From NCBI RefSeq assembly GCF_003332305.1, contig NZ_QOIO01000018.1:1-64000 (forward strand): DNA of 64,000 bases. Direction: 5' to 3'. Position 1 is the stretch's first letter. Every line of letters starts with the position of its first letter. The notes beneath the pieces are model-generated. The model was not told the origin of the DNA. It did not search any database and was given only the letters and a program-made list of their open reading frames with translations. Both the position numbers and the translations under genes were made by a program. The DNA comes from Microvirga aerophila (lineage in GTDB: Bacteria; Pseudomonadota; Alphaproteobacteria; Rhizobiales; Beijerinckiaceae). Shown here piece after piece: positions 7,166 through 11,484 of this stretch.

Positions 7166-7660
7166 TCATTGCCGCTTGAATTTGGCCCTTAGCCGCTCGG
7201 CGACAAGGTCTGGCACAAAAGCCGAGACATCGCCGCCCATCTGGGCGATCTGCCGGACAAGCGTGGCCGTGATGGGGCGAACCGGAGGCGAGGCAGGCAG
7301 AAAGACCGTCTGAACCTCCGGCGCCATGGCGGCGTTCATGGAGGCCATCTGGATCTCGTAGTCGAAGTCGGTGCCGTCGCGCAGGCCCCGGACGATGATC
7401 GAGGCCCCATGACGCCTTGCCGCCTCGACGGCCAGATCGCTGAAGGTCACAACCTCCAGCTCTTTTCCCTGAAGGACTGGTCCGCACACTGCCCGAAGCA
7501 GCTCGGCCCGCTCCTCGGCGCTGAAGATCGGCGCCTTCGAAGAATGGACCCCGATAGCAATAACGATCCGGTCCGCCACATGGCCGGCCTGACGCACCAC
7601 GTCCAAGTGGCCGTTGGTGACGGGATCGAAGCTGCCGGTAAAGAGCGCGGTTCGGGTCAT
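7166..7660 (-). CDS. coaD: Phosphopantetheine adenylyltransferase
   Basis: This is the penultimate step of coenzyme A synthesis: 4'-phosphopantetheine plus ATP gives dephospho-CoA. The 164-residue length is standard. The nucleotidyltransferase motif T-x-G-H sits in [12 protein letters not shown] (Thr15, Gly17, His18). The [12 protein letters not shown] segment and the [10 protein letters not shown] signature follow. It lies between gyrA and the cyclophilin genes on the same strand, a common rhizobial order, although about 1 kb separates it from gyrA here. Confidence 0.97.
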
Positions 7661-7770: not shown

Positions 7771-7848
7771 ATGATCTTTCGCCTTTTTGTTGTCGCCGTC
7801 ACGGCAGTCCTCGTTCTGAGCCCTGCCGCCCTAGCCGGCTTTGTCTAG
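7771..7848 (+). CDS. Tiny open frame encoding only a signal-peptide-like sequence
   Basis: A 25-codon frame starts eight bases after a perfect AGGAGG. It encodes a lysine-poor but clearly signal-like peptide (MIFRLFVVAVT... ending in SPAALA, a good cleavage site) and then stops three codons later with TAG. Either it is a real micropeptide or leader, or it is the stump of an exported protein gene whose body has been lost by mutation. I cannot recognise coding sequence in any frame after the stop. It is oriented away from coaD. Confidence 0.4.
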   Translation: MIFRLFVVAVTAVLVLSPAALAGFV

Positions 7849-8040
7849 AACGCATTTTGCGACCTCACCCTGAGGCAGCGTTTCCAGGAATGCGGGAAAC
7901 CGGCGGGTTTGCCGAGAGGGGACGTTGGCGAGGGGCCAACAATGACAAAGCATGAAAAGGTTGGACTTAGACAGGGTCGACCGATGCGGTTCATGGAGGT
8001 GTTCCCGGCAATGACTCACATGAAAATGAATTGTTCTTGA
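7849..8040. other. Intergenic DNA with small palindrome, no clear gene
   Basis: It contains CCTCACCCTGAGG (7861-7873), an interrupted palindrome of a kind scattered in rhizobial genomes. A 32-codon plus-strand frame (7942-8040, starting MTKHEKVGL and ending MNCS) has only a weak ribosome binding site, and I do not call it. Confidence 0.35.
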
Positions 8041-8375
8041 AACAGGCAAGCGTCGTCGGGCTCTGGGCCGCAAAGGCCCGAGCCTGAAGAGCGATCGAGG
8101 GGCGCGATGGGCGATCCGGCTCGATGGGGGTGATGGTGGGGAAGAGCCGGATGGCCCCTCGCGCACGGCTCTTTTAGGCAAACAGGCAGCTCTGGCTCGG
8201 GAGCTGCCCTCGACGGACGCCGCGCTTGAACAGCGGCGGGTCGCGAGCCAACCCCGACCCCAGAGCGGATGCCTGGGCCTCCCGCCGCCGGGAGTTGCGT
8301 CACTCCAGGCGCGGGACCGTTCCCGACCCCACAATCACGACGCCTCGCGAGCGCGCCCCTCGGTGGGCCGGGACA
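8041..8375 (-). ncRNA. Candidate structured RNA or leader transcribed from an SOS promoter
   Basis: The minus-strand promoter at 8381-8424 should start a transcript near 8375. The next 330 bases are GC-rich and full of hairpins: CTCCCG/CGGGAG near 8278-8293, CAGCTC/GAGCTG near 8187-8206, AAGAGCC/GGCTCTT near 8138-8172, and GCTC-GGGCC/GGCCC-GAGC near 8068-8091. Two overlapping open frames exist on this strand (for example 8303-8016), but their residue composition looks random and they lack good ribosome binding sites. I saw none of the conserved signatures of tmRNA, RNase P, SRP or 6S RNA. A short unrecognised SOS peptide cannot be excluded. Confidence 0.35.
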
Positions 8376-8380
8376 GCCAA

Positions 8381-8409
8381 CCCATAGCCAAGCTTAGGAG
8401 AATTGTCAA
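8381..8409 (-). promoter_or_regulatory. Sigma-70-type promoter next to a LexA box
   Basis: On the minus strand a consensus -35 TTGACA (8409-8404) is followed after exactly 17 bases by TATGGG (8386-8381). The spacing is ideal, and the -35 directly abuts the LexA box, so LexA should block polymerase binding. Confidence 0.65.
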
Positions 8410-8424
8410 GAACAAAACGAGAAC
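8410..8424 (-). promoter_or_regulatory. LexA (SOS) box
   Basis: Read on the minus strand the site is GTTC-TCGTTTT-GTTC, a perfect match to the alphaproteobacterial LexA operator, a direct repeat of GTTC with seven bases between. It is followed immediately by a TTGACA -35 element. No known SOS gene stands downstream, and the target is the structured region at 8041-8375 or something it leads into. Confidence 0.75.
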
Positions 8425-8703: not shown

Positions 8704-11484
8704 TTATTCTTCCGTTCCCTCGGCAGCCTCACCGGCATCGCCGTTGGCTTCGAGGTCTCCGTCCTCGGCATCCTCGCCCTCGATGTGCTCCACCGAGACG
8801 ACCCGTTCCTTGCCCTTGGTCGAGAAGACCGTGACGCCCTGCGAGTTGCGGCCGACGGTGCGGATGCCGTCCACCGGCACGCGGATCAGTTGGCCAGCGT
8901 CGGTGACGAGCATGATCTGGTCGGAGTTCTCGACCGGGAACGACCCCACGAGTTCCCCATTGCGGCTGTTGACCGCCATGGCCGTGATGCCTTTGCCGCC
9001 GCGTCCGGTGATTCGGTACTCGTAGGACGAGGTGCGCTTGCCATAGCCCTTCTCGGACAGCGTCAGGATGAACTGCTCCTGCGCGCTCATGTCCGTGTAG
9101 CGCTCCATCGACAGGGCGTCGGCGGCGACGTTCTCCTCGTCGCTTCCGTTCTCGACCTCGGCATCGCCGTTGGTCTGCTCGCCCGTAATGGCGCGACGCA
9201 TCTTGAGGTAGCCTGCGCGCTCCTCGCCCGACGCCTCCACGTGGCGGAGAATCGCCATGGAGATGATGCGGTCGCCGTCGGCAAGGTTGATGCCGCGCAC
9301 GCCCATGGAGTCGCGACCCTTGAACACGCGGACCTCGGGCACCGCGAAGCGGATGCACTGGCCCTTGGCGGTGGTGAGCAGCACGTCATCGTTCTCGGTG
9401 CAGATCTGCACGTCGACGATGTGCTCGCCCTCGTCCAGCTTCATGGCGATTTTGCCGCCGCGATTGACCTGCACGAAGTCCGACAGCTTGTTACGGCGCA
9501 CCGTGCCGCGGGAGGTGGCGAACATCACGTCGTACCTGTCCCAGGACGCCTCGTCCTCGGGCAGCGGCATGATGGTGGTGATGCGTTCGCCCTGGCGCAG
9601 CGGCAGCATGTTCACCAGCGCCTTGCCTTTAGCGTTCGGGGCTGCCAGCGGCAGACGCCACACCTTTTCCTTGTAGGCCTGACCGGCGGACGAGAAGAAG
9701 ATGACCGGCGTATGCGTGTTGGCCACGAACAGGCGCGTGACGAAATCCTCGTCCCTGGTCGCCATGCCGGAACGGCCCTTGCCGCCGCGGCGCTGCGCCC
9801 GATAGGTCGAGAGCGGGACGCGCTTGATGTAGCCTGCATGAGAGACGGTGACGACCATGTCCTCGCGGGCAATCAGGTCCTCATCGTCCACGTCCGAGTC
9901 CCAGTCGACGATCTGGGTCTTGCGCGGCGTTGCGAAAGCCTCACGGATCTCCGCCAGTTCGTCACGGATGATGCCCATGATGCGCACACGGGACCGCAGG
10001 ATGTCGAGGTAGTCCGAGATTTCGGCCGCGAGCTTGGAGAGCTCGTCGCCAATCTCGTCGCGGCCCAGTGCGGTGAGGCGCTGCAGGCGCAGGTCGAGGA
10101 TGGCGCGCGCCTGGGTCTCGGAGAGGCGGTAGGTTCCATCGTCGTTGATCTTGTGACGCGGATCGTCCACCAGGGCGATGAGCGGCGCGATGTCATGCGC
10201 CGGCCAGTCGCGGCCCATGAGAGCCTCGCGCGCCGAGTTCGGATCCGGCGCGGTGCGGATGAGGCGAATGACCTCGTCGATGTTGGCGACCGCGATGGCA
10301 AGACCGCACAACACGTGTGCCCGCTCGCGGGCCTTGTTGAGAAGATACTTGGTCCGGCGGGAGACCACTTCCTCGCGGAAATCCACGAAGGCGCGGATCA
10401 GGTCCTTGAGGTTCATCAGCTCGGGGCGACCGCCGTTCAGCGCCACCATGTTGGCGCCGAAGCTCGTCTGCAGCGGCGTGTACCGGTAGAGCTGGTTCAG
10501 CACCACGTCCGCCATGGCGTCGCGCTTGATCTCGATGACGATGCGCATGCCGTCGCGGTCGGATTCGTCGCGCAGGTCGGAGATGCCCTCGACCTTCTTC
10601 TCGCGCACGAGTTCCGCGATCTTTTCGATCAGCGAGGCCTTGTTCACCTGATACGGGATCTCGGAGACGATAATCGCCTCACGCTCCTTGCGGATCTCCT
10701 CCACCTCGGACTTGCACCGCATGATGATGGAGCCGCGGCCCGTAGTGTAGGCGGATTTCACGCCCGCCCGCCCGAGGATCAAGCCGCCGGTCGGAAAATC
10801 CGGACCGGGAATGATCTCGATCAGCTCATCAGTCGAGATACCGGGGTTTTCGATGAAGGCCAGGCAGCCGTCGATCACCTCGCCCAAGTTGTGGGGCGGC
10901 ATGTTGGTGGCCATGCCGACTGCGATGCCGCCGGCGCCGTTGACGAGGAGGTTCGGGAACCGCGCAGGCAGAACCGCCGGCTCATGCTTCGACTCGTCGT
11001 AGTTGGGGTTGAAGTCGACAGTGTCCTTGTCGATATCCTCGAGCAGAGGCATCGCCGCGCGGGTCAGGCGGGACTCGGTGTAACGCATCGCCGCCGGAGG
11101 ATCGCCGTCCACCGACCCGAAGTTCCCCTGCCCGTCCACCAGCAGCACGCGCAGGGCGAAGTCCTGCGCCATGCGGACCAAGGCGTCATAGATCGACTGG
11201 TCGCCGTGCGGATGGTATTGACCCATCACGTCACCGACGATGCGGGACGACTTCACGTGCTTTTTGTCCGGCGTGTAGCCGCTCTCGTGCATGGCGTAGA
11301 GGATACGGCGATGCACGGGCTTGAGGCCGTCGCGCGCGTCAGGCAAAGCGCGGCTCACGATCACGCTCATGGCGTAATCGAGATAGGAGCGCTTCATCTC
11401 GTCGACGATGGAAATCAGCTTGACGTCGCTCGCAGGCTGGTCCCCGGCGGGGCCGCCGGAGCGGATATCGTTCGGATCGGTCAA
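8704..11484 (-). CDS. gyrA: DNA gyrase subunit A
   Basis: The catalytic subunit of type II topoisomerase introduces negative supercoils together with GyrB. The 926-residue product has the winged-helix/tower region with [11 protein letters not shown] containing the DNA-linked Tyr135. The C-terminal pinwheel has repeated blade motifs such as RGGKG and a GyrA-box-like QRRGGKG stretch. Acidic insertions ([12 protein letters not shown] region) and an acidic tail ([13 protein letters not shown]) are extra to E. coli. In the quinolone-determining region the sequence is [11 protein letters not shown], so Gln96 occupies the position of E. coli Ser83, while the Asp87 equivalent is kept (Asp100). It is a stand-alone transcription unit with its own terminator. 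Confidence 0.98.

Follow-up and report, generated by a model that had tools for sequence, protein, structure and literature searches.

Few regulatory RNAs under LexA control have been described. One is the small RNA (sRNA) DinR of Klebsiella, which in the accessible text of its description is an RNA under LexA control after DNA damage (PMC10907235), and the ornate bacterial RNAs OLE, GOLLD and ROOL are homo-oligomers with symmetric kissing loops backed by covariance (accessible part of PMC12286853). The stretch analysed here, called the window, comprises positions 1 to 64,000 (64,000 nucleotides, nt) of contig NZ_QOIO01000018.1 of Microvirga aerophila, assembly GCF_003332305.1, and its minus strand carries a putative structured non-coding RNA behind a promoter with a LexA (SOS) box. 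Like DinR this RNA would be under LexA control, which is here predicted from the box; unlike DinR, as far as the accessible text describes the latter (PMC10907235), it is free-standing, multicopy and rigidly structured. The dimer of the Microvirga RNA is a predicted one, and no Rfam relation to OLE, GOLLD or ROOL was found. These three are not known to occur as dozens of LexA-boxed copies per genome. Dispersed intergenic repeats and miniature inverted-repeat transposable elements (MITEs) also have many intergenic copies beside other palindromic repeats, but the Microvirga RNA differs from them in its conserved promoter, its covarying fold and the lack of end repeats or duplications above control. 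The locus is probably one gene of a dispersed family of structured RNAs (~300-340 nt) wired to the SOS response in Microvirga, with LexA control, an SOS burst, dimerisation and action in trans as predicted properties.

The promoter and the RNA have the following positions.

8424-8410, minus strand: LexA (SOS) box GTTCTCGTTTTGTTC, of the form GTTC-N7-GTTC, directly adjoining the -35 hexamer.
8409-8404, minus strand: -35 hexamer TTGACA, from the sequence and from other copies.
8386-8381, minus strand: -10 hexamer TATGGG, 17 nt 3' of the -35; other copies often have TATATC.
8041..8376, minus strand: structured non-coding RNA of ~335 nt, with the 5' end placed from the -10 and an approximate 3' end.

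The box, the TTGACA-17-TATGGG promoter that it abuts and the strongly folding region behind them are present on the minus strand where a first-pass annotation of the sequence had placed them. A bare GTTC-N7-GTTC is found once in the 64-kb window and 1.78 are expected there by chance, so the bare box is not taken as evidence. The composite of box and -35 is specific; in the whole own genome GTTCNNNNTTTGTTCTTGAC occurs only at both copies of the RNA element, with 0 in the reversed control. The promoter in the window was missed by the promoter scanner, which requires a -10 hexamer ending in T.

The first-pass annotation described a single locus, which proves to belong to a dispersed and concertedly evolving family. 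A nucleotide search of 41 genomes, the own genome included, gave matches in 21, with up to 33 per genome, where one copy may give several matches. The own genome has two copies, that of the window and one at G000:C100:42932-43359. When named genomes were scanned for the 23-nt core of the RNA, it was found, among the matches listed, almost exclusively in Microvirga; the other carriers among these are the alphaproteobacterial bin Centralia_MAG_164, Rhizobiales bacterium YIM 77505 and a bin labelled Microvirga sp. C_No_T20_C_bin.82. At no more than one mismatch the core is present in 38 of 48 Microvirga genomes with 1-27 copies each (reversed control 0), and one of the ten core-free genomes, G022, has diverged copies. 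A covariance model of the 5' domain matched 26 of 298 genomes of the family, belonging to 3 of 43 genera, and in the class sample only the own genome of 385. The core was found in 3 of 297 genomes of the order sample, own included, and is present in two other families. Outside the genus the model found 3-20 matches at E <= 0.001 in each of eight genomes; in G410, 10 of the 14 are partial. Plasmid and phage records gave no match, and an origin from these was rejected; the sole match on a viral contig (L162) lacks the promoter and was set aside as unrelated. No description of this RNA was found in the literature, where subscription journals were mostly outside reach. The family is here called a new RNA class, while LexA control and a kissing-loop contact are of known kinds.

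GTTC-N7-GTTC is the LexA motif of alphaproteobacteria in the accessible text of PMC3323433, and the box at the RNA has the form of this operator. In the own genome there are 19 strict boxes against 2 in the reversed control. Their neighbours include SSB, DnaB and a radical SAM repair protein (rSAM-UDG), named above curated cut-offs, and a Y-family polymerase and an ImuA-like protein below them, whereas the neighbours of several other strict boxes could not be named. The same box also precedes recA, in the other orientation and ~100 nt before the start, so that core SOS genes of the genome share it. Because of the 19 sites against 2 and the SOS-gene neighbours, the motif is taken as a LexA box here.

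The start of the box lies 60-69 nt 5' of the core in 142 of 158 distinct copies. The 16 boxless copies are 12 from outside the GTDB genus, one unrelated viral match, one N-masked copy and two from Microvirga (L114, L140); two of the 12 are from bin.82, placed outside Microvirga since its copies are identical in sequence to those of G407, genus g153. Conservation of the box together with the RNA, on which the first-pass annotation had made its reading depend, is borne out by 142 of 144 readable Microvirga copies (142 of 146 with the two bin.82 copies counted) and by all 91 copies fetched from seven genomes, a set from which one core copy each of G329 (of 27) and G334 (of ten) is missing, as are the later-found sites of G017. 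When only box plus -35 were searched for, there were 8 sites in G012, 7 in G325, 19 in G019, 28 in G329, 19 in G330, 26 in G340, 34 in G017, 2 in the own genome and 1 in G334. There were 0 in G342, where the nine core copies differ in the spacer and one checked copy has the box. Six of the ten core-free Microvirga genomes were searched, five with 0 sites and one with 1, and both the four genomes outside the genus and the reversed pattern gave 0. There are 24 sites beyond the known core copies, and 20 of them were fetched (16 of the 20 in G017 and one each from G329, G330, G340 and G001). By eye, 19 of the 20 lead into the same RNA, some with an altered core; the RNA does not follow the single site of the core-free genome G001.

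Two other groups of strict LexA boxes were observed in the own genome. Near-identical frames of 103 amino acids stand directly 3' of the boxes L207 and L209 (C135:28377 and C158:12600); one of them gave no match in an NCBIfam search, and the two are candidate unknown SOS proteins. At C119:12987-33529 (L199-L203) five boxes lie within ~20 kb, one of them beside ssb.

The 337 nt downstream of the promoter fold with -186.9 kcal/mol (z = -4.5), which 0 of 100 shuffles equal, and the strong structure claimed at first pass is upheld. The fold comprises the following elements.

8322..8372, minus strand: P1 hairpin, arms 8372-8365 and 8329-8322, with strong covariation in the family.
8339..8361, minus strand: near-invariant core GAGGGGCGCGCTCGCGAGGCGTC in the P1 loop, from core scans of genomes.
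8344..8352, minus strand: 9-nt apical loop GCUCGCGAG on the stem 8357-8353/8343-8339, containing the self-complementary UCGCGA; a symmetric kissing loop is predicted.
8165..8320, minus strand: long-range helix P2, 8320-8316 with 8169-8165; the outer pair is AU in 14, GC in 12 and GU in 4 of 30.
8102..8164, minus strand: 3' hairpin, 8164-8159 with 8107-8102 and 8150-8144 with 8122-8116.
8096..8101, minus strand: CCCUCG of the proposed pseudoknot P0, which could pair with CGAGGG at 8362-8357 of the P1 loop.
8058..8084, minus strand: terminal hairpin, with no U-tract after it.

The copies form two length classes. Covariation was tested on 30 short-class sequences against 500 shuffles and slid controls. 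In the named structure 95.1% of the cells are paired, against 88.0% when shuffled. Cells changed on both sides number 123 against 50, a value reached by 0 of 500 shuffles and far from the 5-18 of the slid controls, and 16 pairs have changes on both sides, which 1 of 500 shuffles reaches. Compensatory changes, which the first-pass annotation had named as support for an RNA, are accordingly present and exceed the controls in four of five measures, where most of the tested structure was derived from the same alignment, which favours it against the slid controls, and the sequences are related. The covarying parts are P1, the outer pair of P2, the 3' hairpin and the terminal hairpin. For 24 long-class sequences RNAalifold gave 79 pairs, 34 of which are changed on both sides.

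Covariance of adjacent loop letters has been used as evidence for symmetric kissing loops in OLE, GOLLD and ROOL (Nature 2025, accessible part of PMC12286853). In the window copy of the Microvirga RNA the stem of the apical loop is GGCGC/GCGUC. Loops of the UC(NN)GA type occur in 249 distinct copies; their centre is GC in 229, AT in 15, TA in 3, CG in 1 and CT in 1. The 20 departures from GC are self-complementary in 19 cases, where 3 of 15 are expected by chance; nine of them were obtained by the nucleotide search or by fetches that admitted only R-Y centres, and the 11 brought only by the model search, with the centre unrestricted, include 10 self-complementary ones. AC and GT centres, which the restricted pattern permits, did not occur. 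Counted more loosely, 259 of 262 copies and 9 of 11 loop sequences have a self-complementary stretch of 6 or more, CUCGAG in a shortened loop among them; because the filter of this count prescribes the GA at the 3' side of the loop, the random figure (6.1% for free 9-mers) sets too low a standard, and loop copies of one genome are related and hence not independent cases. Self-complementarity is kept while the letters change. Because this is the mark of a symmetric kissing loop, the RNA probably dimerises via UCGCGA. The dimerisation initiation site of HIV-1 has the same layout, a 9-nt loop with two leading nt, a self-complementary hexamer and one trailing purine; the likeness is one of geometry and no homology is claimed.

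No Rfam 15 family reached the gathering threshold in the window and nothing relevant for the RNA appeared at E <= 10, a further permissive search of the RNA gave no relevant relative, and a search for tRNA and tmRNA gave none at the site. Identity with a known RNA was rejected on the Rfam result, in agreement with the lack of a known RNA signature noted at first pass. A weak match to RybB in the window covers the terminator-like site behind gyrA and not the RNA.

All 103 core copies in five multi-contig genomes (14, 19, 27, 25 and 18) are on the largest contig, which makes up 54-89% of these genomes; G019 is flagged as 18% contaminated. The chance of this is of the order of 1e-14 if placement is independent and uniform. 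According to a rough gene caller 0 of 138 copies overlap a gene. Flanks shared on both sides gave 113 cross-species pairs, which form 23 syntenic groups with 79 of the 153 sampled copies. The mean identity of the RNA body in this sample is 0.80 within a genome, 0.71 between positional orthologues and 0.65 otherwise, and in 206 directed comparisons genome-mates are closer on average in 138 and the orthologue in 68. In the six of the seven fetched genomes that have more than two copies the means are 0.83-0.97 within the genome against 0.56-0.82 for syntenic copies. Judged from these identities, the copies are in concerted evolution on partly shared positions, with turnover. A copy behind the presumed gyrA, as in the window, is absent from all 29 relatives examined (30 loci were returned from 48 genomes), and at gyrA-coaD the intergenic regions of relatives without the copy are too different for the junction of an empty site to be read. 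A strand set by the replichore, suggested by G019, was dropped, without a GC-skew test, since in G334 9 of the 10 copies share a strand along most of the contig.

One copy, L019 of G009, is truncated to its 3' half, and a different palindromic repeat stands in place of the 5' half. Other palindromes of intergenic regions, of the GGGAGAGGG and GGCCATGACGG types, are often found directly beside copies (e.g. L241-L248, L052 and L080) in a mosaic of interspersed repeats.

The main rival explanation, serious although unlikely, is a non-autonomous selfish element, that is, a dispersed repeat whose transcript would serve its own spread via the SOS promoter without benefit to the host. The several copies in each of the eight non-Microvirga genomes, some of them partial, the patchy occurrence in the family and class samples, the presence in two other families, the gyrA-adjacent position not occupied in 29 relatives and the truncated remnant beside other repeats all fit such an element. 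The ends of a transposon are not seen, however, in the 67 copies with a recognisable 3' end: terminal inverted repeats have longest runs of 2-4, not above the control (mean 2.8, maximum 7), and target-site duplications of at least 4 nt occur in 5 of 67, where ~4.8 are expected from shuffles. A MITE or other derivative of a DNA transposon was rejected on both counts. The confinement of the 103 copies to the largest contig, the syntenic positions common to several species, the strict conservation of promoter and fold and the unmatched plasmid and phage records also disagree with a selfish element. These points weigh against it; selection for a host function is at most possible.

Less probable still is a mobile SOS-inducible promoter with a leader, where each copy would put the gene behind it under SOS control and the RNA would be the 5' leader. 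The gene behind the copy points the same way as the RNA in 56 of 91 copies from the seven genomes and in 96 of 138 of a mixed set, there is no terminator, and some copies precede genes that by their sequences are presumably ligA-, typA-, purA- and aroC-like. In 11 Microvirga species a copy is found ~3 kb before the match to the 3' part of gyrA, on the same strand (e.g. L288, L003 and L180), and the next called gene after the copy in L288 is gyrA, 583 nt on; for copies just before gyrA a link to gyrase control is possible. On the other hand the downstream gene is opposed in 35 of 91, the genes are diverse, and the RNA body is homogenised whatever the context.

A messenger for a small toxic peptide induced by SOS, of the type I toxin kind known from tisB in E. 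coli, would suit an SOS promoter with a structured transcript that has no recognised protein and a GTG at core +27 in 71 of 91 copies that opens a long frame in most, but it is very improbable given that within-genome indels of 1-12 nt in the RNA body are multiples of three in just 970 of 4443 pairwise cases, that the frame is kept at only 49% of the aligned positions of 1200 sampled pairs, with mismatches spread evenly over the three codon positions (rates of 0.102, 0.116 and 0.120, no excess at the third), and that compensatory changes occur all through the RNA. The indel and codon-position tests did not reveal a conserved short coding frame such as that of a type I toxin mRNA; the coding reading was rejected on them, and they disfavour the micropeptide that had been offered as an alternative at first pass. 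The statement made there that the region has no convincing open frame holds for the coding signal, which is absent, and not for the frames themselves, the longest of which in the window reach up to 167 amino acids. A shared long frame from the GTG is something that GC-rich, near-invariant sequence can give.

An SOS-linked RNA, the other half of the first-pass reading, is well supported by sequence comparison, with LexA box and promoter kept, a covarying fold, no coding signal and no Rfam relative. In the mechanism proposed for it, LexA bound to the box over the -35 would hold the copies silent; repression and SOS induction are expected because of this position of the operator. DNA damage would lead to cleavage of LexA, and many promoters would fire at once in a burst of one RNA. 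This RNA would fold compactly by P1, the long-range P2, the 3' hairpins and, probably, pseudoknot pairing between the P1 loop and the 3' CCCUC, and would dimerise via the loop UCGCGA in a 2+6+1 kissing-loop layout. Most speculatively, the abundant RNA or its dimer might act in trans by binding and titrating a protein or as an RNA-only assembly. Action in trans is the weakest step and is suggested because 35 of 91 copies have no co-directional gene behind them. Protein titration or an RNA-only assembly appears likelier than pairing to one mRNA because the most strongly conserved letters are in the structured core and not in a free seed. Since other lineages have the same RNA behind other promoter signals, its capture by LexA would mean that an older multicopy RNA was given a new trigger. 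Put in full, and only tentatively, the proposal is a self-dimerising RNA class with up to ~30 concertedly evolving chromosomal copies, maybe the most numerous LexA target, in which damage would launch a mass burst of an RNA-only or RNA-protein assembly and LexA would be the changed trigger.

Several observations weigh against an SOS-induced, dimerising RNA with a host function. Relatives outside Microvirga have the RNA and a promoter, with a LexA box in 0 of 28 readable copies (30 loci were fetched; one was without the core by pattern and one matched beside the element). The upstream signal is TTGACA with TAGGAATATA-like letters in genus g158 (L351, L355, L357, L366), TTATCCCCGCC in G237 (L354, L361, L369, L376) and TATATTCCTATC in G039 and the Centralia bin, and the g158 and G237 motifs are perhaps sites of other regulators. 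Since these relatives keep the RNA without the box, SOS control is, on this comparison, a Microvirga feature and not essential to the RNA family. The core is absent at no more than one mismatch from 10 of 48 Microvirga genomes and the own genome has just two copies; the RNA therefore looks dispensable. P0 (GAGGG/CCCUC) is nearly invariant on both sides, so that covariation says nothing about it and it is a proposal, and further pair types are not above the shuffles (47 against 45.8). The loop rule is broken in 3 of 262 copies, by GCCCGAG (L017, L397) and GCTCCTGAG (L377). A long open frame is common to many copies, though without a coding signal. An intrinsic terminator at the 3' end was found in 10 of 91 copies against 7 and 13 of 91 in two controls, and the hairpin and U-tract of intrinsically terminated sRNA genes are not seen.

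If the proposal is true, the SOS response of a genus of soil and root nodules has a large non-coding arm, with dozens of promoters for one RNA. The RNA would then represent a new class whose quaternary contact can be tested, show concerted evolution in a dispersed non-coding RNA family and offer a natural experiment on how promoters are rewired between lineages.

The surroundings of the RNA in the window are as follows.

8704..11484, minus strand: upstream neighbour, a frame in the window that by its sequence is presumably gyrA.
8678-8652: terminator-like site behind gyrA, from the terminator scan.
7166..7660, minus strand: downstream neighbour, a frame that is presumably coaD-like.

In the gap between gyrA and coaD the plus strand has, at window positions 7773-7850, a short frame resembling a signal peptide, with a stop after ~25 codons.
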